From Prevotella sp. (GTDB taxonomy: Bacteria; Bacteroidota; Bacteroidia; Bacteroidales; Bacteroidaceae): 64,000 nt of DNA. Each line of letters opens with the position of its first letter. Position 1 is the stretch's first letter. The notes beneath the pieces were generated by a model. It had not been told where the DNA came from, searched no databases, and worked only from the letters and a program-made list of their open reading frames with translations. Positions 13,594-39,016 of the stretch are shown here, piece by piece. Both the position numbers and the translations under genes were made by a program. Location of the stretch: assembly GCA_017458005.1 (NCBI GenBank), contig JAFTGH010000017.1, positions 180,516 through 244,515 on the forward strand, given 5' to 3'.

Positions 13594-13620
13594 TTCTAAT
13601 AAACGTTTACTATTTGGCTG

Positions 13621-13709: not shown

Positions 13710-13716
13710 CAGGTCG

Positions 13717-14573: not shown

Positions 14574-14574
14574 G

Positions 14575-16065: not shown

Positions 16066-16087
16066 ACACATAAATTTATTTTGGCTG

Positions 16088-16095
16088 CAAATTTA
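16088..16095 (-). promoter_or_regulatory. -7 element of cysS
   Basis: TAAATTTG on the minus strand, 22 nt before the cysS ATG. It is divergent from the CoA-transferase promoter. Confidence 0.55.
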
Positions 16096-16105
16096 CGAAA
16101 AAATA

Positions 16106-16133
16106 TGCATTATGAACTATGAATTATGAATTA
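16106..16133. repeat. Heptamer tandem repeat in the cysS/CoA-transferase promoter region
   Basis: TGCATTA, TGAACTA, TGAATTA and TGAATTA stand in tandem directly upstream of the TACCTTTG box at 16139, where a -33 element would be expected. Copy-number change would alter promoter spacing. Confidence 0.7.
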
Positions 16134-16138
16134 TTTTG

Positions 16139-16146
16139 TACCTTTG
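16139..16146 (+). promoter_or_regulatory. -7 element of the CoA-transferase gene
   Basis: TACCTTTG ending 29 nt before the ATG at 16176. Confidence 0.65.
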
Positions 16147-16175
16147 CAACCAAAATCATAAAATATTAATAAGGT

Positions 16176-17681: not shown

Positions 17682-17700
17682 ACACCTACGCAATATTGTC

Positions 17701-17735
17701 TGAGGAGGATGAGGCTATCATCCTCCTCATTTTTT
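17701..17735 (+). terminator. Rho-independent terminator of the CoA-transferase gene
   Basis: A perfect 12-bp stem TGAGGAGGATGA/TCATCCTCCTCA with a GGCTA loop, followed by six T residues, starting 19 nt after the stop codon. Confidence 0.9.
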
Positions 17736-17763
17736 GATGTCTCGCCAAATCAAATGAAGCGTT

Positions 17764-17825
17764 CAAACGGGTCGAATGTAAGCCACAAACGACCCGTTTG
17801 TAAGTCACAAGCACATCGCTTTCAG
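17764..17825. repeat. Intergenic inverted repeat with overlapping direct repeat
   Basis: CAAACGGGTCG (17764-17774) and CGACCCGTTTG (17790-17800) form a perfect 11-bp dyad with a 15-nt spacer. GTAAGCCACAA inside the spacer is repeated as GTAAGTCACAA immediately after the second arm. It lies past the terminator and before the SPFH gene end, so it is not needed as a terminator for the CoA-transferase gene. Confidence 0.75.
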
Positions 17826-17847
17826 CATTGATTTGAAGGAATTGACT

Positions 17848-18726
17848 CTATTTGCCCACAATCTTTGAGATGTCGAGCATCATGCCGTTACCTCCAACAA
17901 TCTGGGGCATCTTGCCATCCCACTTCTCTATCATGTCCTCCTGCACTATCATCGGCGAGAGTGAGGCGGCAATGGTGCGGTTATAGTAAGCCTCCGCATC
18001 AGCCTTAATCTTCATGGCACGGGCATTACCCTCGGCTTTAGCCACAGCAATCTTGGCATTAGCCTCAGCCTCCTTCACCTCGTTCTCAGCCTTTAAAGCA
18101 CTCTGTATCGCAGTGTTCTTCGCATCAATCATCGAGAGAAGCGATTTAGGTGGTGTTATCTTGCTGGTGAACTCCTCTACGAGGAAGCCCTCAGACATCA
18201 GCGATTTCTCCAAACGGTTGCGTACGTCACGCTCAAAATTGGCACGATTCGACATCAACGAGTCGGACGTATACTGGTTGGCGCAAGTACGATATGCCTC
18301 GTAAATACATGTGCGGATATAGCCTTCCTCCAGTTCTTTCACCCCTACACGATACTTTGTGAAGATGTCACATGCCTTGTCGGGATTAATACGGTAGGCG
18401 ATGGTAGGATCCATCTCGAAAAGTGAGGCATCCTTGGCATTCACAGAGAATGTCTCATACTGCTTTCGTTGAGTGAATGTAGGATAGGTAAATACGTTTG
18501 TCGTAACGGGGTTATAGAACACCCATCCCTTACAAGTGCCCTCCACACCGCCGTAGTCTTGCTCAGAGAGCGACCATTTATGGAAGCGGATGCCCACTTC
18601 TCCAGAGTCGACTACCGTACAGCAGGTAGCGAAAAAGATTAAGACCAACAACACACATCCGCCAGCAATGGCGAGACGGCGTATTACAGGATTCTCGAAA
18701 AGTTTTGTGCTATTATTCTTTGCCAT
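17848..18726 (-). CDS. SPFH/Band 7 (prohibitin-like) membrane protein
   Basis: This 292-residue protein has one N-terminal transmembrane segment (RLAIAGGCVLLVLIFFATCC). The prohibitin-type core follows (VDSGEVGIRFHKWS, FTYPTFTQRKQYETFSVNAKD), then a long charged helix rich in Ala, Glu and Lys (AENEVKEAEANAKIAVAKAEG). Such proteins form ring-like scaffolds on the membrane facing the periplasm and often control proteases; no protease neighbour is visible. It is monocistronic with a TATATTTG box 35 nt upstream. Confidence 0.88.
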   Translation of the reverse strand: MAKNNSTKLFENPVIRRLAIAGGCVLLVLIFFATCCTVVDSGEVGIRFHKWSLSEQDYGGVEGTCKGWVFYNPVTTNVFTYPTFTQRKQYETFSVNAKDASLFEMDPTIAYRINPDKACDIFTKYRVGVKELEEGYIRTCIYEAYRTCANQYTSDSLMSNRANFERDVRNRLEKSLMSEGFLVEEFTSKITPPKSLLSMIDAKNTAIQSALKAENEVKEAEANAKIAVAKAEGNARAMKIKADAEAYYNRTIAASLSPMIVQEDMIEKWDGKMPQIVGGNGMMLDISKIVGK

Positions 18727-18761
18727 CTTCTATTATTGAAATATAAATGTTTTACCAATTG

Positions 18762-18769
18762 CAAATATA
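18762..18769 (-). promoter_or_regulatory. -7 element of the SPFH gene
   Basis: TATATTTG on the minus strand, ending 35 nt before the ATG at 18726. Confidence 0.5.
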
Positions 18770-18809
18770 CAAAAGTTTTTGGAAAAAGAGTTCATAGAAC
18801 CAGAAAAAC

Positions 18810-19460
18810 TTAGAGATACTCCATCAACACATCCCAGACAGCGATGATATGGCAGATGCTGCCTGCGAGGACGAAGAAATGAAAGACACTGTGCATGTAC
18901 CGTTTCTTATGAAAAGTGTAGAAGGCGGCACCTGTGATATAGCACACACCCTCGGCGATGATCCAAATGACGGCGGCGGTGGATACGGAGTCAATCAGAG
19001 GCTTGAAGGCTACCAACACACTCAGCCCCATGCCGATAAAACAGAACGTCTCGATGTTGGAATGCTCCTTGAGTTTGATGAAACTGACGATAGTTCCTGC
19101 GATGGCACAAGCCCAGACGAAGATAAACAGACTCCAGCCCCAATAGCCTTGTGTCCTCAACGCTACCAGAGTCAGTGGAGAATAGGATCCTGCGATATGC
19201 CAGTAGATGGCGGCATGGTCCCATCGGCGCAGCCGCTCCTTCCATTTCGAGCGACGAGGGAGGGTGTGGTAGATGGTGGAGGCGGCATAAGAGCCGAGCA
19301 TGCCAAAGAGATAGAGGCATACACCCAGTCGTGCCCAAGGGTTGTCGCCCTTGAATGCCATCACCAGAAACACGATGCCAAAGGCGACACCCATTACAAT
19401 ACCGCCCGCATGGCTCCATGCGTTCCACAACTCCTCCTTATGTGTATACTTGATTGCCAT
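18810..19460 (-). CDS. Hemolysin III family (PAQR-like) seven-helix membrane protein
   Basis: This protein of about 216 residues is made of seven hydrophobic segments. It carries the family motifs EELWNAWSHAGGIVMGVAFG, YAASTIYHTLPRRSKWKERLRRWDHA (here only partly quoted: DHAAIYWHIAGSYSP) and HSVFHFFVLAGSICH, which bear the conserved Ser, His and Asp metal ligands of the PAQR fold. Despite the name, haemolytic activity is not established for most members. The start at 19460 is fixed by the -7 box, which ends 6 nt upstream. Confidence 0.88.
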   Translation of the reverse strand: MAIKYTHKEELWNAWSHAGGIVMGVAFGIVFLVMAFKGDNPWARLGVCLYLFGMLGSYAASTIYHTLPRRSKWKERLRRWDHAAIYWHIAGSYSPLTLVALRTQGYWGWSLFIFVWACAIAGTIVSFIKLKEHSNIETFCFIGMGLSVLVAFKPLIDSVSTAAVIWIIAEGVCYITGAAFYTFHKKRYMHSVFHFFVLAGSICHIIAVWDVLMEYL

Positions 19461-19466
19461 TGCTTG

Positions 19467-19474
19467 CAAAGGTA
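19467..19474 (-). promoter_or_regulatory. -7 element of the hemolysin III gene, nearly leaderless
   Basis: TACCTTTG on the minus strand with 6 nt between its last G and the ATG. The expected transcript has essentially no leader. Confidence 0.65.
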
Positions 19475-19490
19475 CAACTTATTCTTGATA

Positions 19491-22400
19491 TTACACCACG
19501 ATTCGATATCTTTTCATCAGTTCTGCGAACAGTGGGTTGGTGGATAGTACCTGCTCGTTGCCCGTCATCAGTAATTGTTTACGGGCACGAGTCATGGCGA
19601 CATTCAGTTTACGGTCGATGGTATGCCCATGGTCCTCAAAACAGTTTGCTGTCAGGAAGTCGAGTTGGTAAGGTTGCTGGATGGTGAAACTATAGATGAT
19701 GACATCACGCTGGCTGCCTTGGTAACGCTCTACCGTGTCAATAGAGATATCCATCAGAGCAGGAATCTTCAGTCGCTCTATCTCCCTGCGTATCATGGCT
19801 ATCTGGTTACGATAAGGTACGATGACACCTACCGTATGGGCTGCATCGAAACGGTCGGCACTATATTGGCGGTAGATACGGCGTAGCAGGTCGGCGACGA
19901 TCCTTGCCTCACTGGCATTCACCTTATCGCTCACCCCAATACTATGACAGGACTCGGAGGGGAAGAAGGCGACACGATGTTGTTTGAGCAGGTCGTCAAG
20001 AGCATCCTCTGAGGGAAGGGGATAGTCCAGTTGTCGCTCCTCCTGATGAGGGCAAGGTACAGGTTGTAACTGCTCTTGGGCATAGAACATCTCATTGGGG
20101 AAGGCGGCAATATCCGGATGCATGCGTCCTTGTCGTTGCAGGATAGCGGTAAAGGCTGTACGACCAGACTCCTGCTCAATGCGTAGCAGACGCTCAAACA
20201 ACGACAGCCTGCAAGCAGCGAGGGCAGGGATGTCGTCAGGCTGTTGCACCACGGCAGGCAGTTGCTTATGGTCGCCAATCAGGATGAAACGGTCTACCTG
20301 TGACACACTTAGCAGTCCTATCACGTTGGGCTCCAGAATCTGTGACGCCTCGTCGACGATACATAAGGAGAAATGTTTCAGTTGGAAGAGATAGGGACGA
20401 GCCTGCATGGTAGAGGTTGTGCTGACGAAGACTTGTGTATCGATGATACGCTGGCGGATATCCTCCAAACGGGGACGGTCGCCAAAATTCCTGTCTAACA
20501 GGCGGCAGACATAGCGGGGGTCGCATGAAGTCTCACTACCCAGTCGCAGATAATGGATGCCAGCGTCCTCCAGCATCCCACAAATCTCGTCCACAGCACG
20601 ATTGGTATAGGACATCAGGAGAATATTGGCTTTTGCCTCTTGGCTTTTGGCGGTCAACAATTCCTCCTCTACCAAGAAGCGGAGTGCCATAGAGGTCTTC
20701 CCCGTGCCAGGAGGACCCTGCAGGAGAAAGTAGTCACGAGCCTGTTTTGCCTTCAGCAGGATATCGTCATAGAAAGGATGATAACTATGAGAGAGTAGTA
20801 GTGAGGTGTTCTGTTGAGGCTCCCGCTCTCCTAAGAGCAGGGCGCGACGTTCTGGTGAGGCGGCACAGAAAGCATGGAGCGAGCGGATGGCGGAGGTAGT
20901 GCTGCGGTCCGTGAAGGAGGGTTCGATGGCATAAGTCGTATCACCAAAGACCTCAGGATTCTGTTGCCCGTCATTCAGGCGCACCACCACTTCTCTGTCG
21001 GACAACTGCTCTATCACACCTTTATATAATATAGCGGCACGTACATCTGGCTCTCCCTCGTAGGCGTAGAGGCACACCATATCGTTACGGCGGAAGTTAG
21101 GCAGGAAATCGTCACCCATATCTGGTATCGAGAGTGTCAGGCGGTCGTAACCGCTATAGTCGCTCGACAGTTCTTTGTGCAGCATGCGAAGTCCATAGAA
21201 GATACAGCCAGTATCGCGTTTCTCTGTCAACGGCATGTTCCACAGGTTTGCCACGGCTCCGCCTTGTCCCTCCTGGGTACCAATCTTCTGGGCAAGTTGC
21301 TCTCTATAAACAAAGGTAAGCATGCGTTCCACATAGTTATATGCTGTCTCAGAGAGTTGTTTTAACGGTGCCAGAATATGTTCTGTCTGTGGACGGACGA
21401 AACGCTCAAAGAGGTTTGACTGCACCTTTCGCTCATTCAGGATGTCAGCATTCAGTTGAGACGCAATACTATCGAAGCCTTTCTTTGCCATCTGTATCTC
21501 CTGTGCCACAATCTGGTTGCGCAATCGGATAGCGTCATAAAACAGGGTCTGGTAGTAGTTGACGATGAGCAGGCCTTGTTTGGCAGGATAGCGTGAGTAA
21601 AGCAAACGGATATCCACTTTATCGGTGGAGAGATGGAAGTTATAGCGCAGGATGCCATAGTAAAGCAGGAGTTGGACATAATGAGACTCAGAGTAGAGAT
21701 GAGAGGCAAGGGGCGTGGGACATGACGCGGCATGTTCCAGGCTCCAGTTCTTACCTGATTTCTGCTCCACCAACAAACGCTTATCACTCGTCATGAGGTC
21801 GACGCGCCCCTGTAGTCCTAACTGTTCGCAGACGAAGGAAGGCTCTAAAAGAGGTAAGAAGTGAGATGTTTGAGGTAAGAGTTGTGTTGCCGCCTCCTTG
21901 ATATGCTCCACTTGCAGGAAGGCATCTTCCTTGAACTTCTGGGGATTGAACTCCGCACAGGTACAGAACTGCAATGCCTGTTCACGGAAGGAGTTGCGGA
22001 TGGTGTCGTGTGGATGATAGTCAGTCTGGTTGATGATATCATCCAGGGCGGCACTGGCGAAGTTTCCCAAGAGGATGGGCTGCGTGTTGGCAGAGGGCTT
22101 CAGTCGTCCTAACGTATAGGCTATCGGATGGTGCCCATAGTCGGAGAAGCAGGCTGCCAGCGACGAGATATCCAATAGGAAGTCGGGCTCTACCACGATG
22201 AGTTTAGGGTGAATCGTCTGCCCCTCACGATGGCAGTCCAGTAGGTTGAGTTGCGTGCCCTCTGTCAACAAGGGTCGCAGTGTCTCATCATCTGTCTGGA
22301 TGCATACACTCCCCTCATCAGTCGTCGCATAGATATACTCGTCGTCCCAGTAGGACACCACACAACGGATATAACGCTGATTGATCCGCATCGTGAGATT

Positions 22401-28130: not shown

Positions 28131-29330
28131 TTAATTATTTTTATTCAAGTCATGGTCTGTCATCGCACAGACGCAGGAGTCGCTCCATACGTTGACAGCA
28201 GTCTCCACCATATCTATAATGGTATAGATGGGGAGGATGATGCCGAGGACGGCGATAGGGGCATTGATGCCAGACATCAGGGAGAGGGTGAGGAAGTAGC
28301 ACCCCATGGGAACACCAGCATTGCCGATGGCAGAGACAACGGAGATAAGAACCCATGTGAGCATGGTGGTCCAGGTGAGTTCGATACCCCCCTGCTGCAT
28401 CACGAAGAGTGAGGTGACCAGAATAAAGGCTGCGCAACCGTTCATGTTAATCGTCGTACAGATGGGTAGTACGAAACGGGATATCTGCGATTTAACGCCC
28501 AGTCGTTCCTCGGCAGTTTGCATCGTGACAGGAAGGGTCGCTGCACTGCTCTTTGTGAAGAGTGCCATCATAATGGCAGGTGTCATCTTCGTCATGACAC
28601 GGACGGGATTCAGTCCTCTGGACAACAGGAAGATGGGCAGCACCACGAAGAACTGCAACAGGTTACCTCCCAATACCACGGCGACGTATTTCCCAAGGGA
28701 GTCGGCAATGACACCAGCGCTCAGCTGAGAACTTAGTTGGGCGGCAAAGGCGACGATACCTACGGGCAAAGCCCATATCAATCCGCGTATCAGCATAAAC
28801 AGTACCTCTTGTATACCTAAAAGGAAGTTGACCACCGTCTTCTTGTGGGGCGTGTCTGTCATCTGCGACAGGGCGATGCCCACAGCAGCGGCAAGGAGCA
28901 ACAGCGAGAGCACATTGCCTTCAAGGAATGGTTTCACGATGTTGTTGGGGATGATGCTCAGCAAGTGGTCTGTATAACTCAGCTGAGTGTTGACCGCTGA
29001 GAGTTGAGAGTCTGTCTCTGCGGCACTTATGTCCATATTGCCAGGAGCAATAATGACATAGAGAAACAAACCGACCAGAGCAGCCACGAGAGTGGTGAGC
29101 AGTGTGTACATGATGGTGTGCCGGAAGATGCGTCCGGCATCTGGTCCACTGCCCAGTGTCGCCAGTGTGGTGGTGACAGCTAATACGATGGTCGGTACGG
29201 CAAGCAACTGGAACAGTCGCACATAGATGGCGGCGATGAAATTGGCAGTGTTATCAATGCCGCTGTTTTGTAATAAACCAAGGATGGCGCCCACTATCAG
29301 GGCGCCTATCCATACTAACATTTGCTTCAT
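28131..29330 (-). CDS. DAACS-family sodium-coupled dicarboxylate/amino-acid symporter
   Basis: This 399-residue inner-membrane protein has eight or so hydrophobic helices. The hairpin motif SSAATLPVTMQ and the transport core CTTINMNGCAAFILVTSLF correspond to the Ser-rich HP1 and NMDGT motifs of the glutamate/aspartate/succinate/cystine symporter family; the usual NMDGT is NMNGC here. Substrate cannot be read from sequence; the family includes the cystine carrier TcyP. It is 31 nt after the third URO-D-like gene, so it probably belongs to the leader-peptide/SusCD operon. A short insertion SQLSAVNTQLSY in an external loop is coded by a heptamer repeat. Confidence 0.85.
   Translation of the reverse strand: MKQMLVWIGALIVGAILGLLQNSGIDNTANFIAAIYVRLFQLLAVPTIVLAVTTTLATLGSGPDAGRIFRHTIMYTLLTTLVAALVGLFLYVIIAPGNMDISAAETDSQLSAVNTQLSYTDHLLSIIPNNIVKPFLEGNVLSLLLLAAAVGIALSQMTDTPHKKTVVNFLLGIQEVLFMLIRGLIWALPVGIVAFAAQLSSQLSAGVIADSLGKYVAVVLGGNLLQFFVVLPIFLLSRGLNPVRVMTKMTPAIMMALFTKSSAATLPVTMQTAEERLGVKSQISRFVLPICTTINMNGCAAFILVTSLFVMQQGGIELTWTTMLTWVLISVVSAIGNAGVPMGCYFLTLSLMSGINAPIAVLGIILPIYTIIDMVETAVNVWSDSCVCAMTDHDLNKNN
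28976..29010. repeat. Heptamer repeat inside the DAACS gene
   Basis: AACTCAG, CTGAGTG, TTGACCG, CTGAGAG and TTGAGAG encode the SQLSAVNTQLS loop on the minus strand. Confidence 0.6.
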
Positions 29331-29361
29331 TTAGCTATTTAACGGAAAAAATGGCTGTTTA

Positions 29362-30375
29362 TTATTTCTTATGTGTCTGGCGCCATGAGTGAACATAATC
29401 CACCACAGCACGGAGACGATCACTGGCTGTAGAGTCAGGTACTGTGCAGTTGGCTCCGAGAATCAGATTCTGCGGACCATTGGACAACACCTTATCCACC
29501 TGGGCATATACCTCCTCAAGGGTTCCATTAATGAGAACTCCACGATGGTCAAGTCCACCAAAGATAGGACGTTTGAAAACCTCCTGTGCATGGTGCAATT
29601 TCTCAACATCGAATTCTGGTAGGTTGATGATGGTGCCAGGGTAGTCTGCCCATGCGTCTAGGTTCTCATATTGACCGCCACAAATGTGCAGAATGTTGAG
29701 AGGGGCTACCGAGTCTGCCACTTCCGAGATATACTTATCCCATTTGCGCAGATACTTAGTCCACACCTCTGAGTCCTGACCAAAAAACTCGATGTTACCA
29801 CCATGTGATGACACATAGAAACCATCGGCACCCCGTTCGCGGGCAGCACGGATATAATTCTCAATGCTTTTTGCCAACTTCTCGAAGGCAGGTTCTGCGG
29901 CAGCGGGATTCTTCTTGATGACCTCGTCCACCCCCACGCCTGCGGCTTGGTGTAAAATGAGCAACGGGGAATAGACTGTTGGAATTATCAAGGCAGAGTC
30001 TTTCAACTGCGTTGCCAATTCCTCTATCACTTGTAACTGCGGCTCAAAATATTCTGCAGGTAGTTCCTGTACCTTCTCAAAATCTTTTGCAGTCTTGATT
30101 TCCCATTTTGGGGGTAGTGTTTCATACTGGACCTTCAAGATGTCATTTCCTGTCTCATGGAAAAAGGCTATGTGTTCTTCTACTGCCTTCGGACCAAATT
30201 TGTCGGGGAAATGATGAAAGAATGCTGCAGGAATAATATCTGGTGCTTTTGTCTGGTCAAGCACACGCTCAATCAGTTCTCGTTTGTTGGATACCAGTTC
30301 CTCCTGCTGTTGTGTGGAGCAAGCCGTCAGCGTAATCACTGAGAACAGCACTAACTTGATGACATTTTTATCCAT
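29362..30375 (-). CDS. Exported URO-D/MtaA-fold lipoprotein, paralogue 3 (complete HxC...C motif)
   Basis: This 337-residue protein has lipobox LTAC (Cys19) and a TIM-barrel similar to uroporphyrinogen decarboxylase and the cobamide-dependent thiol methyltransferases MtaA/MtbA/CmuA. His230 and Cys232 in NILHICGGQ and Cys310 in LILGANCTVP reproduce the His-x-Cys...Cys zinc site that activates a thiol in those methyltransferases. True HemE lacks a signal peptide, so haem synthesis is unlikely. It is the third of three tandem paralogues (23-nt gap) and ends in the shared tail VDYVHSWRQTHKK. The thiol and methyl donors are unknown; no corrinoid protein is encoded nearby. Confidence 0.8.
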   Translation of the reverse strand: MDKNVIKLVLFSVITLTACSTQQQEELVSNKRELIERVLDQTKAPDIIPAAFFHHFPDKFGPKAVEEHIAFFHETGNDILKVQYETLPPKWEIKTAKDFEKVQELPAEYFEPQLQVIEELATQLKDSALIIPTVYSPLLILHQAAGVGVDEVIKKNPAAAEPAFEKLAKSIENYIRAARERGADGFYVSSHGGNIEFFGQDSEVWTKYLRKWDKYISEVADSVAPLNILHICGGQYENLDAWADYPGTIINLPEFDVEKLHHAQEVFKRPIFGGLDHRGVLINGTLEEVYAQVDKVLSNGPQNLILGANCTVPDSTASDRLRAVVDYVHSWRQTHKK

Positions 30376-30398
30376 ATTACACCATTGTTTAAATGTTG

Positions 30399-31466
30399 TT
30401 ATTTATGTGTCTGACGCCATGAGTGAACATAATCCACTAGGGCACGCAATTTCTCAGGGTCAGAGTCATTGGGTACGGAGTCATCAGCACCAAGGATGAA
30501 GTTCTGGGGGGCATTCCTCAGGATTTCATCTACCTCTGCCTTTGCCTCCTCTATGGTACCAGTATAAATCTTACTCTGACGACGCAAGCCACCCAGTACA
30601 GGGCGTTTGAACAATGCTGCAACTTGTTTGGTGGTCAGGGATGGACCCTGGAACTCATGGTAAGGTACGTTTACAACACTGCCGGGATAGTCGGTATAGT
30701 CATTAAACGATGATGCTGTAAAATGACCACCACCCTCGCAGATATGCAGGATATTGAAAGGAGCCACCTCATTAGCGGCATCAGAGACCTGCTTGTCATA
30801 AGGCTTTATCAAGTCCAAGAACAATTTTCCTCCAAACGACTCGACATCATCACCCTGACTGGAGATATAGAAGCCGTCGGCACCAGCCTTACGGGCCTCG
30901 CGGATGTAATAGACCAGACTTTTGGTCACTGCTTCCAATGCTGGTTTCACAGCCTCTGGATCTTTCTTGATAAGTGCGATGAACTTCTTGCCTGCATCAG
31001 GGTCGGCAGAGCCCCACACGCCTGTTGCCTGACGGAGCAGGGCAAGAGGAGAATAGACAGTAGGGATGATGAATGCCTCATTTTTTAACTCACGGGCGAG
31101 TTCTTTCACCACTAGCACCTGATCGGTCCACTCGCCTGCAGGGAACTCCTTAAACTTCTTCCAATCAGCAGGAGTTTTCACTTCTACATGCTGTGGCACA
31201 TACTCATATTTCACATTCACAAAGTCAACATGCGTTGTACGGAACCAGTTGATGTGTGACTGTACCGCCTTCCATCCGAACTTGTCGGGGAAGTGAATAT
31301 TGAAAAACACGGGAACATAGTCGTTGGGGCGGCTTTGGTCCAATACTTGCAACAGCAACTCACGCTTGTTATAGTTATCGTAAGTCTGTGCGAAAATGGT
31401 CTGGTTAAAAGCAGAGACTGCTACAAAAAGTAGCAGACCTCTGCGGAAAATATGGCTAAAATTCAT
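30399..31466 (-). CDS. Exported URO-D/MtaA-fold protein, paralogue 2 (third zinc ligand changed)
   Basis: This 355-residue protein has a signal peptide (LLLFVAVSAFNQTIFAQ). It shares the family blocks VLDQSRPNDYVPVFFNIHFP, IPTVYSPLALL and GADGFYISSQGDD with its neighbours. His241 and Cys243 in NILHICEGG are kept, but the position of the third ligand reads GADDSVP, so Asp329 replaces Cys. It may bind metal differently, or serve as an inactive or binding partner. It lies 22 nt after paralogue 1 and 23 nt before paralogue 3, and the three are clearly tandem duplicates that have diverged. Confidence 0.8.
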   Translation of the reverse strand: MNFSHIFRRGLLLFVAVSAFNQTIFAQTYDNYNKRELLLQVLDQSRPNDYVPVFFNIHFPDKFGWKAVQSHINWFRTTHVDFVNVKYEYVPQHVEVKTPADWKKFKEFPAGEWTDQVLVVKELARELKNEAFIIPTVYSPLALLRQATGVWGSADPDAGKKFIALIKKDPEAVKPALEAVTKSLVYYIREARKAGADGFYISSQGDDVESFGGKLFLDLIKPYDKQVSDAANEVAPFNILHICEGGGHFTASSFNDYTDYPGSVVNVPYHEFQGPSLTTKQVAALFKRPVLGGLRRQSKIYTGTIEEAKAEVDEILRNAPQNFILGADDSVPNDSDPEKLRALVDYVHSWRQTHK

Positions 31467-31488
31467 ATGGGGTCGTTATTATAAAGTA

Positions 31489-32535
31489 TTATTTCTTATG
31501 AGTCAGACGCCAAGAGTGCGCATAGTCGATGACAGCACGCAGTTTCTCCCAGTCGGTATCACCAGGCACGGTGCAGTCGGCACCTAGGATGAAGTTCTGG
31601 GGAGCGTTCTCCAGCACCTTGTCAACAGCAGCCTTAGCCTCCTCCACACTACCTGTGGCTATGACACCCAGACGCTCTAAGCCTCCGAAGATAGGACGGC
31701 CGAAACGCTTCTGCGCCTCTTTCAAGTCGAGTACGGAGCCATCAGAGAAGTTTAGAGGCACATTGATGATGCTGGCGGGATAGTCAGTGAAAGCATAGAG
31801 TGCCTCAGCATTCTTAAAAGGTGCACCGTAGTCGCAGATATGCAGGATATTGATCTCACCAATCTCGTTTGCCACCTCAGAGACATGCTTGTCCCACTGG
31901 CGCACCTGCTCGTTCCAGATCTTAGCAGACAGCAGGTTGCCGTCGCCACCCTGGCTCGACACATAGAAGCCGTCGGCACCGTGCTTACGGGCAGCACGCA
32001 GGTAGTTCTCAATAGAGAGAGAGAGGTTCTTAATGGCGTGACCGAAAGCAACGGGATCCTGCTCAGCGAACTTCTTCAGGTCCTCACCCCTCTTACCTAA
32101 TGTCTGGGCAGCAAGTGCCAGTGGAGAATATACGGTAGGCAGGATGAATGCCTCACTACCATACTCACGGGCAAGATCCTCGATGACGGCAACCTGTGGA
32201 GCGAAGAAGTCCTCACCATAGACGGGCACTTTCTCCCAGTCCTTTCCGCTCTTGATGTCAATCTGAGGAACGACAATCTCGTAGAACACTTTCACAAAGT
32301 CCATGTTGGTTGCCTTATAGAAAGCCTTGTGGTCCTCTACAGCCTTACGCCCCAACTTATTCTCAAAATGGAGGAAGAAGCCGGCAGGCACATACTCGTT
32401 AGGACGGCTCTGGTCGAGTACTTGCAGGATGCGCTCACGACGATTGTTTGCTACTTGCTGCTGGGCAGCGACTTGTTGGATGCCTGTGGTTGCAAGCAGA
32501 GCCACGGCGATTGTTCTAAATAAATTCTTTTTCAT
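31489..32535 (-). CDS. Exported URO-D/MtaA-fold protein, paralogue 1 (complete HxC...C motif)
   Basis: This 348-residue protein has a cleavable signal peptide ending near QQVAAQ, so it is periplasmic. It has the same barrel as the next two genes, with His232 and Cys234 in NILHICDYG and Cys321 in FILGADCTVP forming the zinc-thiol motif of MtaA/MtbA-type methyltransferases and, by fold, MetE. It follows susD by 36 nt. The export of such an enzyme is odd, because the known relatives use cytoplasmic corrinoid proteins. A zinc-dependent thiol or thioether chemistry in the periplasm is my inference. Confidence 0.8.
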   Translation of the reverse strand: MKKNLFRTIAVALLATTGIQQVAAQQQVANNRRERILQVLDQSRPNEYVPAGFFLHFENKLGRKAVEDHKAFYKATNMDFVKVFYEIVVPQIDIKSGKDWEKVPVYGEDFFAPQVAVIEDLAREYGSEAFILPTVYSPLALAAQTLGKRGEDLKKFAEQDPVAFGHAIKNLSLSIENYLRAARKHGADGFYVSSQGGDGNLLSAKIWNEQVRQWDKHVSEVANEIGEINILHICDYGAPFKNAEALYAFTDYPASIINVPLNFSDGSVLDLKEAQKRFGRPIFGGLERLGVIATGSVEEAKAAVDKVLENAPQNFILGADCTVPGDTDWEKLRAVIDYAHSWRLTHKK

Positions 32536-32571
32536 TTGTCTATAACGTTTTAATGATTCAATTTTTCAATC

Positions 32572-34161
32572 CTACTCAAACTCCGCTCCATAAGGACCAT
32601 CGCCCGTCTCACCGCTATAGCCCCAGTTCTGTTCCAGGTTCGGGTTTAGGATAATCTGCTCCTGAGGCAGTGGCAACAGGTAGTTCTTTTTCGACACGTT
32701 CTGTATCTTGGTGGTCTTGGTACCGAGGGTCTCCGCATCGGTCGGTGTGTTTGCCTTTACATACTTTACTAAAATATGCCAGCGGATGAGGTCAAACCAA
32801 CGTTGCCCCTCCAGGACGAACTCCAAGCGGCGCTCCTCACGCAGTTTCTCACGGAACTGTTCCTTTGTCAACCCAGAGAGGTTGAGGTCTGAACCGTCAG
32901 AGGGGGTGAACTGGGTGTTCTCATAAGGGCTCCAGTAGGCACGACGGCGCACTTGGTTGATTGCCTCGTAAGCGGCAGTCGTAGGACCATTCAACTCATT
33001 CTCTGCCTCTGCCTTGATGAGCAGCACCTCGGCATAGCGGATGATAACGGTGTTGGTCGACTGTCCTGCTACATTACCTGTTGAGGCAGGATTGGCGAAG
33101 TTCAGCGAGTCGATGTACTTGCGGAAGCGAGGGATGGTGAACACATAGTCCTCGCCCGTATTGGGGTTGTAGATACGCTTTGCCCAGGATCCGTCACGAC
33201 GCTGGTCACGGGGGTCAGTCTGCTCATAATACTTGTCGCTCGTGGCAAGCAGCACAGGCTCTGCGTCATCCCAGTTGGTGGCAAAGGTGCAGTGTCCAGA
33301 CACGTTGGCATTAATGGTACGATCGTGTTCTATAGAGAAGATATGCTCTGCGCCATGTTTCTTGTCTACCGACCAGTTGTCAATGAACTTATTAAGCAGG
33401 CTATACTTCCCGGAGTTGATGACCTTATTGGCATAGTCGACAGCCTTCTGGTAATACTCACGCTGGTTAGCCTTACCCTCGTCGCTGGATGTCTGCGCCC
33501 ATACCAAGTAGACCTTGGAGAGCAGGGCAGAGGCGGCTAAACTATTAGCCTTGCTGTCGAGGGTAGTGTAATTGGCAGGCAGTTGCTCACCAGCGGTGAG
33601 ATCCTCTACAATCTGGTGATATACCTCATCGACACTATTGCGCGGAGCCCCTTCGCCCTCACCGTCATGGAGTACGATGGGTACACCACCGAAATAGCGC
33701 ACGAGGTTGAAGTATACAAAACCACGCAAGAAACGAGCCTCATTGATATAGTTCTGTTTTGACTGCTCGTCGAGGAAAGAGGCATCCGTCACCTTGTCGA
33801 TGACCACATTGGCACGGTTAATTGCCGTATAATGCTCCTCCCACGCATAGTTGACGAAGAGGTTGGTGGGCTGCACGGCGAAGTTCGACAACTCACGGAT
33901 ATGGGCGGAGTTGGTCTGTGCACCAGCCTTCACATAGTCGGTCTGCAAGTCGTTGATGTAGACACTCTGGTTGTTGAACATGCCATAGAAGCCGTCCACA
34001 GTAAACTCTTGGTAGACACCGTTGATTGCAGTCTCGATATCCTCCTTGCTGCCATAGAAGTTCTCCTTGTCGATAGAACTAATGGAACTCTGTTCCAGGT
34101 CTGCGCAACTGCTCAGTGTCAGTGCGGCAGCGAATATATAATTAAAATAATTCTTTCTCAT
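32572..34161 (-). CDS. SusD/RagB-family outer-membrane lipoprotein (sulfur-type locus)
   Basis: This protein of about 529 residues has lipobox LTLSSC. The SusD tetratricopeptide-like helical core is seen in YINEARFLRGFVYFNLVRYF, the typical IIRYAEVLLIKAEAENEL near residue 390 and the C-terminal RRLEFVLEGQRWFDLIRW. It forms the lid of the SusC channel and binds substrate at the cell surface. I use the ATG at 34161, because the longer frame begins inside susC. The 52-nt gap to susC contains CGATATnn octamers and a T-tract. Substrate class cannot be told; neighbours suggest it need not be a glycan. Confidence 0.9.
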   Translation of the reverse strand: MRKNYFNYIFAAALTLSSCADLEQSSISSIDKENFYGSKEDIETAINGVYQEFTVDGFYGMFNNQSVYINDLQTDYVKAGAQTNSAHIRELSNFAVQPTNLFVNYAWEEHYTAINRANVVIDKVTDASFLDEQSKQNYINEARFLRGFVYFNLVRYFGGVPIVLHDGEGEGAPRNSVDEVYHQIVEDLTAGEQLPANYTTLDSKANSLAASALLSKVYLVWAQTSSDEGKANQREYYQKAVDYANKVINSGKYSLLNKFIDNWSVDKKHGAEHIFSIEHDRTINANVSGHCTFATNWDDAEPVLLATSDKYYEQTDPRDQRRDGSWAKRIYNPNTGEDYVFTIPRFRKYIDSLNFANPASTGNVAGQSTNTVIIRYAEVLLIKAEAENELNGPTTAAYEAINQVRRRAYWSPYENTQFTPSDGSDLNLSGLTKEQFREKLREERRLEFVLEGQRWFDLIRWHILVKYVKANTPTDAETLGTKTTKIQNVSKKNYLLPLPQEQIILNPNLEQNWGYSGETGDGPYGAEFE

Positions 34162-34179
34162 AATGTTTTCTTTTTTTTT

Positions 34180-34211
34180 CGATATCCCGATATTTCGATA
34201 TATCAATATCT
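34180..34211. repeat. Tandem CGATATnn octamers in the susC-susD gap
   Basis: CGATATCC, CGATATTT, CGATATAT and CAATATCT fill the gap beside a nine-T tract, repeating the arrangement seen between speA and argB (894-925). Confidence 0.8.
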
Positions 34212-34213
34212 TG

Positions 34214-37200
34214 TTATAAAGTGATATTAAAACCAACTAATACCGTCTTGGCGGCAGGATAGGCACCATAGTCCACTCCCTGATACAAGGCACTGGTCTC
34301 ATCGATACCGTTACGGTTTGCCTCTGGGTCATAACCACTGTAATTAGTGATGGTGAAGAAGTTCTGCAGTGAGACATACAGACGGAGTTTGGCATCCTTC
34401 GTGATCTGTGGAACAGGCAGGGTGTAGCCTAACTGGATGTTACGGAACTTCAGGTAACTGGCATTCTCCACGAAGCGGTCGTCCGCATAGATAGAGGTGG
34501 CACTGGTCGCCTTCTGGATGGTATTGCTGGGATTGGTGACCGTCCAACGGTCGGCGACCTCGGCGAGCGGGTTATAGTAGTAGCCGTTACCACGATCCAG
34601 ACGGCAGGCAAGGGCGTTGAAGAGTTTGTTGCCATAACTACCGCTGATGCTGACGAAGAGATCCCAGTTCTTATAGGCTACCTTCGTATTGAAGCCATAG
34701 GTGAATTTCGGCTGGATATTTCCCAGAACTACACGGTCTTGCTCGTTGACCACACCATCACCATTCACATCCTCGAACTTCGGATTACCAGGCTCTACGG
34801 TGGAGATGGTCTGTGCAGGCAGTTGACTGAGGTCCTCGTCCGACTGGATGATACCCTTGAACCTATAGCCGTAGAAAGTGCCGAGAGGCTCACCCACCTT
34901 CACGATCAGGGGGTTAATATACTGTAGGGTACCTACTGATGCGAAGTCTGGCAGGAAATACTCGGAGTTGCCCAGACTAGTCACCTCGTTCTTGTTGTGG
35001 GCGATATTCGCATTGACATTCCACTTCCAGTTCTTGTTGTCAAGCAGCACACCACCGATTTCCAACTCCACACCCTTGTTAGTCACAGAGCCGACATTAC
35101 GCAGCACAGTGGAGAAACCAGTCACCTGCTCTACAGGTACGTCCAGCAACAGATCACTGGTCTTCTTATAATAGGCGTCGAGGGTCACCGTCAGACGGTT
35201 TTGGAAGAAACCAGTGCTTAGTCCCACGTTATAAGAGGTAGTGGTCTCCCACTTCAAATCCTCGTTCGACTTGTTCTCGATGATATAACTTGTAGCCTGC
35301 TGGTTATTGATAATCACCGTGCGAGGAACCACATTGGCGGCAAACTGGTAGTCACCGATCTCCTGGTTACCGACGGTACCGACAGAGGCACGCAGTTGAA
35401 TGAAGTCCACGTTCTTGCCCAGACGGAGCCATTTCTCACGGTCGATGTTCCACGACAGACCCAGTGAGGGGAACCATCCCCAACGGTGGTCCTTGGCGAA
35501 ACGGCTGGAGCCATCGGCACGGAGGGTAAGAGAGGCATTATAACGGGAGTCGTAACTGTAGTTCACACGACCAATCCACGACTGGAGGGTAGAGATATAA
35601 TGACCACTAACGGAAGGCAAGGTGGTAGCGGCTGCACTTAAATTATCATAGCCAGTAGCGTCGTTGCTGAAACCGTAGGCAGTTGTAGCGACACTGCTGC
35701 GGTCGGTTTGCTGGGCAGTATAGCCCAACAGTGCCGTCAGCGAGTGTACACGCTTGAAGATATTGCTGTAGGTTGCCGTGTATTCTGTCTGCCATGTCGT
35801 GGTCTTTGTCTGACCTACAGAGGCATAGCCACTATTGGCAATACCACCTGTGGTGTAGGAGGGAGCATAGTAACTCTGGCGGGTATTCGAGATATCAGCA
35901 CCCAGGCTCGCCTTCAACTTCAACTGCGGGATAATCGTCCACTCGGCGAAACCAGTACCTATCACACGGGTGTTCTCCGTCTCAGCCTTGGTATTCTCCA
36001 AGTCGCTGATGGGGTTGCCCACTTTGCCATTGTAGATATCCACGCTGGTAGGAGTGGCATCGTAGTTATACGAGCCGTCAGCATTATAGATAGAGGTATA
36101 TGGTGTGTGCGAGATAGCAGCGAACCAAGGACTTGGCTGGAACATGTTACCACTGTTGTCGGCGACACCTAATACCTTGTTATAGGCAGCATTGGCATTG
36201 ACACCCACCAGCAGGTTCTTGAAGATGTTACGCTCGTAGTTGATACGTCCTGCATAGCGGGTCAGTCCCGTACCCTTCACAATACCGTCTTGGCTCTTGT
36301 AACTGCCACTGATGCTGTAGCGTGAGATCTCATCGCCGCCTACGGCAGACAGTTGGTGCTCCTGCGAGAAACCTGTGCGCAAGGCTGCGTCCTGCCAGTC
36401 GTAACTCTGGGTGGGGTTGTCAAGGTCATAGCCCAGTTCACCGTTCTGGTAGAGTTCGTGCCAGATGTCCACCCACTGCTGGGCGTTGAGGAAATCCAGT
36501 TTCTTACCGATGGTGCTCCATCCGAAAGAGGCGTTATAGGTGATGTTGTTACGACCGTGTGAGCCTTTCTTGGTGGTGATGATAATCACACCATTGGCAC
36601 CACGGGTACCATAGATAGCAGTAGCGCTTACATCTTTCAGCACCTCAATGCTCTCGATGTCGGCAGGATTCAAGAAGGACAGCGGGTCCAGCGTAGCATC
36701 ACTCGTCTTGGCACCCGTACGTGTGGAGGCGGGATCGTTATAGACTATAAAACCGTCAATCACATAAAGGGGCTCATTACCACCCGTGATGGAGTTACCA
36801 CCACGAATACGGATGATACTAGCCGCACCCGGCTGACCTGATGTCTGAGTCACGTTAAGACCTGCGACGGCACCTTGCAGCGCACTCTCCACGGAGTTGT
36901 TCTGCTGGCGCAGCACCTCATTGCCTACACTGGAGATGGCACTGGTCAGTTCGAGACGCTTCTGCTCGCCATAACCAATGACAACCACCTCGTTCAAGCG
37001 ACTGCTGTTATCTTGCAACTGGATATCCACCGACTCGGAGGCATCATACACATCCACCTCCTGAGGGCGATAGCCTACATACTGTACACTGAGGGTAAGG
37101 GGCAACTCGACGTTGGTCACCAGTTTGAAGTTTCCGTCTACATCCGTGACGGCACCTAACTCCTTACTTGACTTGGGAACTACGGAGGCACCTATCAGCG

Positions 37201-37309
37201 CCTCACCAGTACGGGCGTCAACGATACGACCCGTGATGGTGGTCTGAGCCAGTGCGTTCAGCACTGACACCAGACACAATAATAAAACTACTAATGACTT
37301 CTTTTTCAT
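34214..37309 (-). CDS. SusC/RagA-family TonB-dependent transporter (sulfur-type locus)
   Basis: This protein of about 1,031 residues has a signal peptide (LVVLLLCLVSVLNALAQ). A carboxypeptidase-regulatory-like domain (TITGRIVDARTGEALIGASV) precedes the TonB-dependent plug (VVIGYGEQKRLELTSAIS, RIRGGNSITGGNEPLYVIDG and the family mark ATAIYGTRGANGVIIITTKK), followed by the 22-strand barrel. It imports a ligand across the outer membrane with SusD. The start is the ATG at 37309; upstream codons of the open frame overlap a strong hairpin (37328-37361). The gene lies 117 nt after the binding-protein gene and probably shares its transcript. Confidence 0.93.
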   Translation of the reverse strand: MKKKSLVVLLLCLVSVLNALAQTTITGRIVDARTGEALIGASVVPKSSKELGAVTDVDGNFKLVTNVELPLTLSVQYVGYRPQEVDVYDASESVDIQLQDNSSRLNEVVVIGYGEQKRLELTSAISSVGNEVLRQQNNSVESALQGAVAGLNVTQTSGQPGAASIIRIRGGNSITGGNEPLYVIDGFIVYNDPASTRTGAKTSDATLDPLSFLNPADIESIEVLKDVSATAIYGTRGANGVIIITTKKGSHGRNNITYNASFGWSTIGKKLDFLNAQQWVDIWHELYQNGELGYDLDNPTQSYDWQDAALRTGFSQEHQLSAVGGDEISRYSISGSYKSQDGIVKGTGLTRYAGRINYERNIFKNLLVGVNANAAYNKVLGVADNSGNMFQPSPWFAAISHTPYTSIYNADGSYNYDATPTSVDIYNGKVGNPISDLENTKAETENTRVIGTGFAEWTIIPQLKLKASLGADISNTRQSYYAPSYTTGGIANSGYASVGQTKTTTWQTEYTATYSNIFKRVHSLTALLGYTAQQTDRSSVATTAYGFSNDATGYDNLSAAATTLPSVSGHYISTLQSWIGRVNYSYDSRYNASLTLRADGSSRFAKDHRWGWFPSLGLSWNIDREKWLRLGKNVDFIQLRASVGTVGNQEIGDYQFAANVVPRTVIINNQQATSYIIENKSNEDLKWETTTSYNVGLSTGFFQNRLTVTLDAYYKKTSDLLLDVPVEQVTGFSTVLRNVGSVTNKGVELEIGGVLLDNKNWKWNVNANIAHNKNEVTSLGNSEYFLPDFASVGTLQYINPLIVKVGEPLGTFYGYRFKGIIQSDEDLSQLPAQTISTVEPGNPKFEDVNGDGVVNEQDRVVLGNIQPKFTYGFNTKVAYKNWDLFVSISGSYGNKLFNALACRLDRGNGYYYNPLAEVADRWTVTNPSNTIQKATSATSIYADDRFVENASYLKFRNIQLGYTLPVPQITKDAKLRLYVSLQNFFTITNYSGYDPEANRNGIDETSALYQGVDYGAYPAAKTVLVGFNITL

Positions 37310-37327
37310 AACACATGTCTCCCTTAG

Positions 37328-37361
37328 GATTGCCCGTGGAGCCTCGGCTCCACAAGCAATC
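37328..37361 (-). promoter_or_regulatory. 15-bp intercistronic hairpin just upstream of susC
   Basis: On the mRNA, GAUUGCUUGUGGAGC pairs with GCUCCACGGGCAAUC over a CGAG tetraloop, using two adjacent G-U pairs and no mismatch. There is no U-tract after it, so it is not a terminator of the usual kind. It ends 18 nt before the susC start and could be a processing/stability element or a translation control hairpin. Confidence 0.75.
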
Positions 37362-37426
37362 ATCCATTAATAAAACAAACTAACCTGATTAATTAATACA
37401 AATACTTAAGTGTATACCTATTGAAT

Positions 37427-38320
37427 CTATTTTTGAGCCAATTCTTTCTGTTCGGTACGATGCAACTGTGCCGTCAACTCCTTCTGGGGAAGTTGTAACA
37501 GCCCGTACTCATGAATATATTTATTGCCGTCGGTCAATATCCAGCGAACGAAGGCGTTCTGACTGCTATTGTGATGGTCGTACTGCAATCCTAACTTGCC
37601 AACGGGGATCTCCGCGAACTGCTGCTGCTCCAGCAAGAGGATGATGTCATCCAGGCGAGCCTCGTCCAACACCTGCTCCCCATGCTTGTCAATGTCCAGG
37701 GGTACCAGCGCAAGGTCATTGCGCAGATGGCGGCTCTGCAAGTCGAAGATATTGGAGAGGGAATTGATGGCGATACCTAATGGATCACGGCTCAAGGCAA
37801 CATTCAGAAAACTGTCATCACCAGAAATCTTCTTACCTTTATAATTACTAATCTCCTCCTTGAAAGAGGCGGCATAAGTGCGGGATGCCGACTGCTGACT
37901 ATTACCTGTGTAGATATGAAGCGCTTTCTCTGCCTTCGTCTCCTTCGTGTCGTCGTCAAACTCATCTTTCACGAAGAAAAGACTCTTCAGTTTCTTGGCG
38001 TTCAGACGCTTGTTGCCTAAAACTTGCTCAGCCTCCGACGACTTGTTGACGACCGGCAGGACGGCATAGCGTGCGATGAAAATGGCATCGTCAGCCTGTT
38101 CTGTCACAAATGAAATACTGTTTTCGTTATCCTGTGCCTTCCCTGTTGCAATCTGGAAAGCGACATTGTTGTTGGTCTTGCTATACTCGGCAACCCACTT
38201 CTCAACCAACGGACGTACAGAATTCTGTACGCGAAGGGTTACCTTCTCGTTCTGCGCGGTGGCTGTCAGACTAACTTGCAGCCCTAAAAGCAATGCTATC
38301 GTAAAAACTGATCTTCTCAT
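37427..38320 (-). CDS. Periplasmic PBP-like (PstS/sulfate-binding-type) solute-binding protein, orphan
   Basis: This 297-residue protein has a signal peptide (IALLLGLQVSLTATAQ). Its layout is that of a type II periplasmic binding protein of PstS/Sbp kind: LRVQNSVRPLVEKWVAEYSK and FQIATGKAQDN at the first lobe, then SRTYAASFKEEI and SGDDSFLNVALSRDPLGIAIN at the anion site, and FVRWILTDGNKYIHEYGL at the end. No ABC permease or ATPase gene accompanies it; instead susC and susD follow. The ligand may be sulfate, phosphate or an organic anion. Its start codon lies inside the overlapping leader ORF, in another frame, so leader translation could control it. Confidence 0.7.
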   Translation of the reverse strand: MRRSVFTIALLLGLQVSLTATAQNEKVTLRVQNSVRPLVEKWVAEYSKTNNNVAFQIATGKAQDNENSISFVTEQADDAIFIARYAVLPVVNKSSEAEQVLGNKRLNAKKLKSLFFVKDEFDDDTKETKAEKALHIYTGNSQQSASRTYAASFKEEISNYKGKKISGDDSFLNVALSRDPLGIAINSLSNIFDLQSRHLRNDLALVPLDIDKHGEQVLDEARLDDIILLLEQQQFAEIPVGKLGLQYDHHNSSQNAFVRWILTDGNKYIHEYGLLQLPQKELTAQLHRTEQKELAQK

Positions 38321-38447
38321 AATGTTGTCGTTCTATATATATATTAATAATGTGTTGGTCTCTCTTCTCCTTATCATTATGCATCATCTGCTTGCTGCTA
38401 CAACAACAGCAACACATTTGCATCTGTCTCATACTCATTGTCTTCAT
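38271..38447 (-). CDS. Cys/Met-rich leader peptide ORF (candidate cysteine/methionine attenuator)
   Basis: A 58-codon ORF starts about 45 nt downstream of the probable transcription start. Its first 22 residues are rich in sulfur amino acids: Met at 1, 4, 6, 9, 11, 21 and 22, and Cys at 12-16 (codons TGT TGC TGT TGT TGT, 38400-38414). The ORF runs 50 nt into the binding-protein gene in a different frame, covering that gene's start codon. Ribosomes stalled on the Cys run for want of Cys-tRNA would stop some 80 nt short of that start, while freely moving ribosomes would cross it. Poly-Cys leader ORFs acting as cysteine attenuators are known in mycobacteria; use here is inference. The peptide itself shows no domain. 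Confidence 0.7.
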   Translation of the reverse strand: MKTMSMRQMQMCCCCCSSKQMMHNDKEKRDQHIINIYIERQHYEKISFYDSIAFRAAS

Positions 38448-38496
38448 AACTTTAGTCAAATTTAATTTAATTTCTAAAATGATTTTAATCACGCTG

Positions 38497-38504
38497 CAAA
38501 GGTA
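38497..38504 (-). promoter_or_regulatory. -7 element of the leader-peptide operon
   Basis: TACCTTTG on the minus strand, ending 49 nt before the leader ATG at 38447. No other consensus promoter was seen down to the DAACS gene, so it probably drives leader, binding protein, susC, susD, the three URO-D-like genes and the symporter. Confidence 0.65.
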
Positions 38505-38616
38505 CGGCGGAATTTTGACTCCCACAATACCCTTTAAATGGCATTTTTTAATAACATAAGTTTGGTATGATGCATGAAATGATAGGGAGGAATGATGGAT
38601 TCTTGAAAAGATTTCG

Positions 38617-38641: not shown

Positions 38642-39016
38642 ATGAAAGCAATCAACACAAAAAAGGCGCCTGCCGCTATCGGACCGTATAGCCAGGCTAT
38701 CCAAGTAGGGAATCTCATCTATACCTCAGGGCAGATTCCCATCGACCCGAGCACGGGGAGTTTCGTGGAGGGAGGTATCCAGGAGCAGACCCGTCAGTCG
38801 CTCAATAATGTCAAGGCAATACTGGAGGAGGCAGGCACTGACATGAGCCACGTCGTCAAGACAACGGTATTCCTTTCGGATATGGCGGACTTCGCAGCGA
38901 TGAACGATGTTTATGCGGAGTTCTTCACGCAGCCCTATCCCGCCCGTTCCGCCGTTGCCGTAAAGACACTGCCGAAAGGCGCCATGGTAGAGATAGAGGT
39001 CATTGCGGAACTGTGA
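38642..39016 (+). CDS. ridA: RidA-family enamine/imine deaminase
   Basis: This 124-residue protein removes reactive 2-aminoacrylate and related enamines made by PLP enzymes, including those that break down serine and cysteine. [20 protein letters not shown] is the family opening. Arg102 in [17 protein letters not shown] is the carboxylate-binding arginine and Glu118 in EIEVIAEL completes the site; the length is standard. It is divergent from the Cys/Met-leader operon, and its role would fit sulfur amino acid turnover, but it is a common housekeeping gene, so the link is only suggestive. Confidence 0.93.

Follow-up and report, generated by a model that had tools for sequence, protein, structure and literature searches.

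Organization of the operon

The DNA analysed here, below called the window, is a 64,000-nucleotide stretch of a Prevotella sp. genome (assembly GCA_017458005.1, contig JAFTGH010000017.1). Its minus strand carries, from position 38504 down to 28131, an operon composed of a leader open reading frame (ORF) rich in Cys and Met codons, a gene for a PstS-like binding protein, SusC- and SusD-type genes, three genes for proteins of the URO-D fold and a gene for a symporter of the DAACS family. We consider it likely that the operon serves sulfur acquisition. There is one clear Bacteroidetes-type promoter for the whole of it, with the −7 box TACCTTTG at 38497..38504 (minus strand, as are all features of the operon), and CGCCGTACCTTTGCA recurs in relatives. 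Further minus-strand TAnnTTTG strings are found at 38464, in the 5′ untranslated region (UTR), and at 29566, within the third URO-D gene; neither of them lies behind the conserved block of the main promoter. As the GH3/OlsH-like gene downstream of the symporter has a −7 box of its own at 28102, the operon probably ends at the symporter.

An earlier sequence-only reading had described these genes as a single minus-strand run from one −7 box, and this description was borne out. It had also put the gaps at 22–117 nt. This is correct between the genes, with the SusC start taken as the ATG at 37309 (a start at 37327 would give 99 nt for the gap upstream of it), but not for the leader, which overlaps the PstS-like gene.

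All counts per locus given below were obtained from the best 80 of 255 confirmed relatives in a scan of named genomes. These 80 loci are mostly from Prevotella, with some from Salinivirgaceae and other Bacteroidales, and where the titles name a source they point to ruminants or rumen compartments. The counts of leaders, operators and cargo refer to related contigs and not to independent events. Some of the named loci are the same contigs as loci of our sampled genomes (e.g. L085 and L041), so that the two sets are not independent, and they were counted apart.

The leader open reading frame

The leader ORF (38271..38447, 58 aa) starts with MKTMSMRQMQMCCCCCSSKQMMHND. The 5′ UTR ahead of it is tens of nt long, and the ORF shares 50 nt with the PstS-like gene, which is read in a different frame. 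It contains seven Met codons and a run of five consecutive Cys codons (38400..38414, read from the sequence). At least 11 Cys and Met residues were found in 2 of the 1263 ATG-started 24-codon open stretches of the window, both of which are nested starts of the leader, and in none of 13070 such stretches from 20 single-base shuffles. The Cys/Met-rich leader ORF after the promoter, as proposed earlier, is confirmed, and its Cys and Met content is unmatched elsewhere in the window.

Such leaders recur upstream of the PstS-like gene in relatives of the same genus. Among the carriers are two cultured strains, Prevotella sp. tf2-5 (L091) and khp7 (L146), each of which has a leader as well as URO-D cargo. 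They lie between the promoter and this gene in 56 of the 79 loci with upstream DNA (L126, which has none, was dropped from this count). A strict rule identified 54 of them, and the short leaders of L106 and L109 were added by eye; a looser rule also gave 56, with L113 and L122, which we judged to be false, in place of those two. No upstream tract of at least three Cys codons was present in the 23 leaderless loci, in which 260 nt were searched (only 93 nt in L104). The distance from the TTTGCA of the promoter to the start of the PstS-like gene has a median of 185 nt in leader loci (150–289 nt, 55 loci) versus 46 nt in leaderless ones (26–111 nt, 21 loci).

The 51 distinct leaders, taken over at most their first 34 codons, contain 222 Cys and 383 Met codons. 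Their ratio of non-synonymous to synonymous variation (pN/pS) is 0.39 in frame versus 1.02 and 0.63 in the shifted frames. The Cys codons are TGT in 153 cases and TGC in 69, while Cys itself is kept. The Cys run varies in length from about 2 to 8 codons, and insertions within leaders preserve the frame. By these comparative measures the leader is evolving as a coding sequence. One such frame-keeping insertion, of about 12 codons around CLGKRHIVSSGC and with self-complementary DNA, is found in L151, L152, L155, L163 and L164, and another, of 11 codons, in L090.

In the Salinivirgaceae group the leader has roughly 16–35 codons and stops directly after the Cys run. The stop codon of the short leaders of L103, L116–L119, L127 and L130 is followed by two overlapping stems (GCGGY/RCCGC and NATGGC/GCCATN) and an A-rich stretch. 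The arrangement is like that of a small H-type pseudoknot or of hairpins that alternate. By eye, a few compensatory changes are discernible; RNAalifold recovered the first stem (GCGGY/RCCGC) and no covariation.

In consensus folds of the leaders the Cys codons form a weak hairpin with what follows them, and there is little covariation. Transcription attenuation by an intrinsic terminator was considered and is not favoured, as no terminator-like site was seen between leader and PstS-like gene of the window, nor any in the folds. The notion of a genome-wide element of cysteine genes was likewise dropped, because the profile of the leader gave a single strong match in the own genome of the window. 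Seven weaker matches to this profile (E 0.002–0.045) among 399 genomes of the family were judged on reading to be due to chance.

The operator and its proposed regulon

The operator-like palindrome TACCAAACTTATGTTA (38552..38567) has one mismatch to TACCA-N6-TGGTA and lies 66 bp from the promoter CTTTGCA. When up to one mismatch is allowed, 61 of 78 loci have a TACCA-N6-TGGTA palindrome in the 330 bp ahead of the PstS-like gene, and its density there is 2.37 per kb versus 0.083 per kb elsewhere. In 124 of 346 site-strand scans the palindrome started 64–66 bp before a promoter [CTA]TTTGC, with the spacing peaking at 65; each of three control patterns did so in 0 of 140, 1 of 96 and 0 of 40, respectively. 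In L134, L142, L152, L155 and L163 the symporter gene has a site to itself, with a spacing of 42 bp, which is nearer by about two helical turns.

For the 135 cases with a spacing of 63–67 bp, the window included, we recorded the next gene. It encodes a PstS-like protein in 56 cases, MoeB or another ThiF-like protein in 31, CysK in 11, a YtkA-like lipoprotein in 9 and one each of four others; the remaining 24, which carried no label, are mostly genes for a DsrE-like protein, together with four LuxR-type regulators and one MetB-like protein.

A strict operator-promoter pattern, with a 50-base gap and one mismatch allowed, has three matches in the own genome, before metY-cysK, before a regulator-metB-patB group and before cysK. 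Over four genomes it has 14 matches versus 4 for its backward control. Ten of these stand before PstS-like, Cys/Met, MoeB or DsrE-like genes and another before a ThiF-like gene; the other three appear to be chance matches. The palindrome TACCAT-N4-ATGGTA alone was rejected as a specific marker, since its backward control is equally frequent in several genomes. The combination of the palindrome with its spacing from the −7 box is specific, although less so in searches of whole genome sequences. The regulator encoded together with metB and patB contains a GerE (LuxR-type) DNA-binding domain, with a receiver domain that scores below its curated cut-off. The 7-2-7 form of the palindrome, TACCATA-N2-TATGGTA, is reminiscent of NarL-type sites.

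Sulfur genes around the operon and in its hosts

Sulfur genes were counted as homologues, at 50% identity or more, of MetB/C-like proteins, PatB, CysK, MoeB, JAMM, CysD/N/H, CysS and sulfatase within at most 10 kb on each side of the operon. At least one of them is present in 58 of the 80 loci and at least two in 51. Two 20-kb control pieces of the window gave CysS in one and no sulfur gene in the other; the homologue of cysteine-tRNA ligase in question lies in 1–20000, more than 8 kb from the operon. Among the neighbours, CysK, PatB, CysD/N/H and CysS score above their family cut-offs, and there are also MoeB-like and MetB-like enzymes. In the close relative L086 a series of metB-like, patB, cysK, moeB, JAMM and ridA genes stands directly before the operon. 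A cysteine-tRNA ligase gene lies upstream of the PstS-like gene in L143 (2695–4185), and a CysS match is found upstream in L161 too.

The own genome has a cluster on another contig (C17; L186 189–9360) which starts with a regulator, metB-like, patB, cysK, dsrE and tusA genes and continues with genes for a family 2B encapsulin shell and for a cysteine desulfurase that resembles encapsulin cargo, followed by moeB-like and JAMM genes. The genes of this encapsulin compartment lie downstream of two copies of the TACCA-N6-TGGTA operator.

Within the 80 loci the constant genes are the PstS-like gene (80, by selection), SusC (77) and SusD (67). The rest is variable cargo: homologues of URO-D proteins 1, 2 and 3 are present in 23, 16 and 4 loci, the symporter in 42 and an M20 peptidase in 9, and CysK is found nearby in 14. 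Relatives also carry sulfatases, an alkyl sulfatase, OsmC-like proteins and peptidases. In L088 the cargo before the M20 peptidase (17793–18650) has an ATC hydrolase domain (PF14196), which we take to suggest thiazoline-to-cysteine chemistry.

A divergent RidA-family gene (38642..39016, plus strand; TIGR00004, 191 bits) has its regulatory region in common with the operon. In L061, L065 and L070 a similar palindrome stands ahead of ridA, which is followed by a gene for a NirA/sulfite-reductase-like protein. L070 also has what by eye is a fragment of a URO-D C-terminus (1035–1358), located beside a symporter start and facing the palindrome shared with ridA.

The own genome contains two CysK genes and gave no match for CysD or for a NirA/sulfite-reductase-like protein of its genus, which counts in favour of the sulfur-acquisition explanation. 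CysD was found in 5 of 42 genomes of the same genus, one of them a fragment, and the NirA/sulfite-reductase-like protein, a query which itself is below all NCBIfam cut-offs, also in 5 of 42; all of these are among the 25 genomes with the PstS-like gene. Because matches to both proteins are so rare, most of these bacteria seem, as far as genomes of which several are incomplete can tell, to need reduced or organic sulfur.

Properties of the encoded proteins

The PstS-like protein (37427..38320, 297 aa) is an exported homologue of PstS and sulfate-type binding proteins (hhalign probability 99.1). Over 263 columns its family aligns with another, to which the binding protein encoded in a cysG-pstSCAB-cysD-cysN-cysH operon belongs. 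In L051 (2–7279) cysG, a pst-type ABC transporter, cysD, cysN and cysH form one run, and this Pst-like transporter is probably a sulfate importer. The PstS-like protein of the window has no Pfam or NCBIfam match, and a PDB profile search with its family gave nothing significant. It was matched in 35 of 150 genomes of the same genus, in 27 of them at E <1e-20.

The SusC-type TonB-dependent transporter (34214..37309; ORF open from 37363, start chosen by eye) scores 869 bits against TIGR04056, for which the cut-off is 368. Its gene adjoins that of the SusD-type lipoprotein (32572..34161; PF07980 and PF14322; ORF open from 34236, start chosen by eye), and the two therefore form a SusCD pair by definition. 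The symporter (28131..29330; PF00375, 313 bits) has a Glu at the position of the Arg in transmembrane helix 8 (TM8) of aspartate transporters, and the same replacement is found in 38 of 39 relatives, the remaining one having no match to the motif. The TM8 Arg of aspartate transporters binds the acidic side chain of the substrate. Since it is replaced by Glu, an acidic amino acid is an unlikely substrate, to judge from the alignment. The sequence-only reading had named an orphan PstS/Sbp-like protein, SusC, SusD and a DAACS symporter. The first of these holds by profile comparison and not by Pfam or NCBIfam, and the other three are confirmed by their family matches.

All three URO-D-fold proteins match PF01208. 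Protein 1 (31489..32535) has the candidate ligands His-x-Cys ... Cys, protein 2 (30399..31466) has His-x-Cys ... Asp, and the lipoprotein-like protein 3 (29362..30375) has His-x-Cys ... Cys. By eye, Sec-type export signals are predicted for proteins 1 and 2, and a lipobox for protein 3. His-x-Cys is kept in all 40 relatives examined, and the last candidate ligand is Cys in 21 of 21 relatives of protein 1 and 4 of 4 of protein 3, and Asp in 15 of 15 of protein 2. The candidate His-x-Cys...Cys zinc site is thus present in proteins 1 and 3 and not in protein 2. The earlier suggestion of zinc-thiol enzymes that cleave or demethylate a compound is only partly supported, and less well than sulfur-linked control: two of the three proteins keep three candidate ligands, while none reaches the MtaA/CmuA cut-off (TIGR01463 scores of 40.6, 43.2 and 53.4 bits versus 235) and family scans detected no corrinoid protein among the genes of the operon. 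Given these scores, the window proteins are not filed as MtaA/CmuA on present sequence criteria. Their predicted export signals argue against the classical coenzyme M/corrinoid reaction. The idea of a family of exported URO-D proteins broad in Bacteroidota was abandoned, as only the own genome had it among 247 sampled from the class (E 1e-20).

Relationship to known systems

His-x-Cys...Cys are the zinc ligands of MtaA. The window URO-D proteins resemble MtaA, MtbA and CmuA in PF01208, in His-x-Cys and, for proteins 1 and 3, in the last Cys; they differ in the signal peptide or lipobox recognized by eye, in the low TIGR01463 scores, in the Asp of protein 2 and in that no corrinoid protein was seen with them. 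With the SusCD/RagAB systems of Bacteroidota the operon has in common the adjacent SusC and SusD genes with TIGR04056/TIGR04057 and PF07980 matches, and it differs in having a sulfur-type operator, a leader rich in Cys and Met and, as its first gene, a PstS-like one. Polysaccharide utilization loci usually contain glycoside hydrolase and regulator genes, whereas this operon has neither.

The nearest precedent of the leader is found in mycobacteria, where polycysteine leader ORFs, conserved in position and sequence, form a short first ORF with a Cys run before sulfur genes (PMC4633059), and where a cysteine-responsive attenuator is described (Canestrari 2020, as cited in PMC13236596). The Prevotella leader belongs to another phylum, its Cys run is joined by Met and CGA codons, it has a 5′ UTR and so is not leaderless, and it overlaps the next start codon; moreover, the genes behind it specify an import system of the outer membrane. 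For Flavobacterium psychrophilum, likewise a member of Bacteroidota, there are reported hints that biosynthetic operons for amino acids, which have structured 5′ regions, are attenuated through leader peptides, and the available part of that paper names no cysteine leader and no SusCD operon under such control (PMC9723704). The available part of PMC9386245 contains nothing on Cys leaders. None of the papers among the literature matches listed dealt with SusCD loci regulated by sulfur or with Cys leaders of Bacteroidota, which is weak evidence of absence.

Interpretation

The most likely explanation is that this SusCD operon serves to acquire sulfur, is turned on at a shortage of reduced sulfur and is controlled by both the operator and the leader. 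Sulfur-linked control, as suggested earlier, finds support in the conservation of the leader, the sulfur-gene neighbours, the common operator and the host's seeming inability to reduce sulfate. An activator would bind to the TACCA-N6-TGGTA site, some 65 bp ahead of the −7 box. We infer its identity and the direction of its effect, and the best candidate would be the regulator of NarL/LuxR type whose gene accompanies metB and patB. The operon would then be co-regulated with cysK, metY/metB, patB and the sulfur-carrier genes, with which it has, by comparison, the operator in common.

The leader is probably a translational attenuator, and its presumed signal is the charging of Cys and Met tRNA. 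When these charged tRNAs are plentiful, ribosomes would cross the leader and the overlapping start of the binding-protein gene, depressing initiation there. When they are scarce, a ribosome would pause at the Met, CGA or Cys codons, leaving the downstream start free, and the operon would be expressed. We favour such translational control via the overlapping start over transcription attenuation because the consensus folds show a weak hairpin and no terminator. Control through such an overlap would require no conserved RNA structure. Short leaders, which terminate ahead of the next gene, must act by another route. As to the products, their families suggest that SusCD may import an organosulfur compound or peptide, on which the exported URO-D-fold zinc-type enzymes may act in the periplasm; the PstS-like protein would bind either a product of theirs or an oxyanion, and uptake of the freed amino acid or thiol would fall to the DAACS symporter.

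A different possibility is that the operon belongs to a sulfur regulon via the operator only and that the leader is no amino acid sensor, being either inert or a structural RNA element such as a repeated CGAAUG motif. In the 51 distinct leaders, which come from L085–L164, CGA is the Arg codon before Met in 78 of 82 cases, although it makes up only 5.4% of the Arg codons in the genes for SusC/D, the binding protein, the symporter and the URO-D proteins at the same loci. Part of the constraint on the leader is therefore at the nucleotide level, and slow codons or an RNA motif may matter too. That the consensus folds pair the Cys codons with what comes next and that many leaderless loci retain the operator would also suit this explanation. 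It is nevertheless unlikely, and the free TGT/TGC switching under a constant Cys, the low in-frame pN/pS and the insertions that preserve the frame speak against it.

Several observations weigh against the sulfur-acquisition explanation or parts of it. The leader, expected in orthologous loci at the same position, is absent from 23 of the 79 loci, and L145, which has the same URO-D and symporter cargo as the window, is leaderless, so the leader is common and not obligatory. As strong matches to its profile were limited to 2 of 399 family genomes (the own genome and G511, before the PstS-like gene in both), it is confined to some lineages, as far as profile searches tell. A terminator-like hairpin is missing from the consensus folds, so that the attenuation mechanism rests on the anatomy of the leader. 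The backward control of the strict operator-promoter pattern has one match in the own genome, and the strict 65-bp pattern misses the window's own site, which has a spacing of 66 and one mismatch. The upstream neighbours of the operon in the window include starch-type genes, its own sulfur cluster being on the other contig. The own genome is 92% complete, which makes the absence of CysD and of the NirA/sulfite-reductase-like protein from it provisional. Finally, a YtkA-like lipoprotein in 33 of the 80 loci and a second TonB-type protein in 28 could concern metal.

This last observation leads to another explanation, in which the leader senses copper or zinc, or thiol stress, via a nascent chain with Met-x-Met and poly-Cys, SusCD imports a metal complex, and the sulfur neighbours serve thiol defence. 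The Met-x-Met and CC motifs do resemble metal ligands, and OsmC-like proteins are among the cargo of some loci. However, the YtkA-like lipoprotein is commoner where the leader is lacking (18 of 24 non-leader loci, L126 included, versus 15 of 56 leader loci), whereas all 14 CysK neighbours are confined to leader loci. As the operator matches of the own genome precede Cys/Met genes and the variable length of the Cys run fits codon counting better than a metal site, we regard a metal sensor as quite improbable. An ordinary glycan or peptide utilization locus that lies near sulfur genes by chance is hardly credible, for although SusCD pairs mostly serve glycans or peptides, several relatives carry peptidases and starch-type genes adjoin the operon in the window, no glycoside hydrolase was found among the 20 cargo proteins scanned with Pfam, the cargo includes sulfatases, an alkyl sulfatase and CysK, and the operator statistics speak against it.

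Returning to sulfur acquisition, we put forward a broader and tentative proposal, which we hold with slightly more doubt than conviction. The operon may be part of a sulfur-starvation regulon of rumen Bacteroidales that has not been described before, in which a NarL/LuxR-type activator, the operator and a Cys/Met attenuator drive interchangeable SusCD cassettes for organic sulfur. The cassette of the window would pass this sulfur on to periplasmic zinc enzymes of the URO-D fold, which would form a new class and would cleave carbon-sulfur bonds.

In most cases SusCD systems are interpreted as importers of glycans or peptides; here one family of them, often with a built-in Cys/Met leader and with an operator in common with Cys/Met genes, appears to serve sulfur nutrition. 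It offers a candidate sulfur regulator for Prevotella and a candidate for poly-Cys leader control outside mycobacteria, and it gives exported URO-D-fold enzymes a physiological context. For gut bacteria that seemingly lack sulfate reduction, it would constitute a testable route of sulfur supply.

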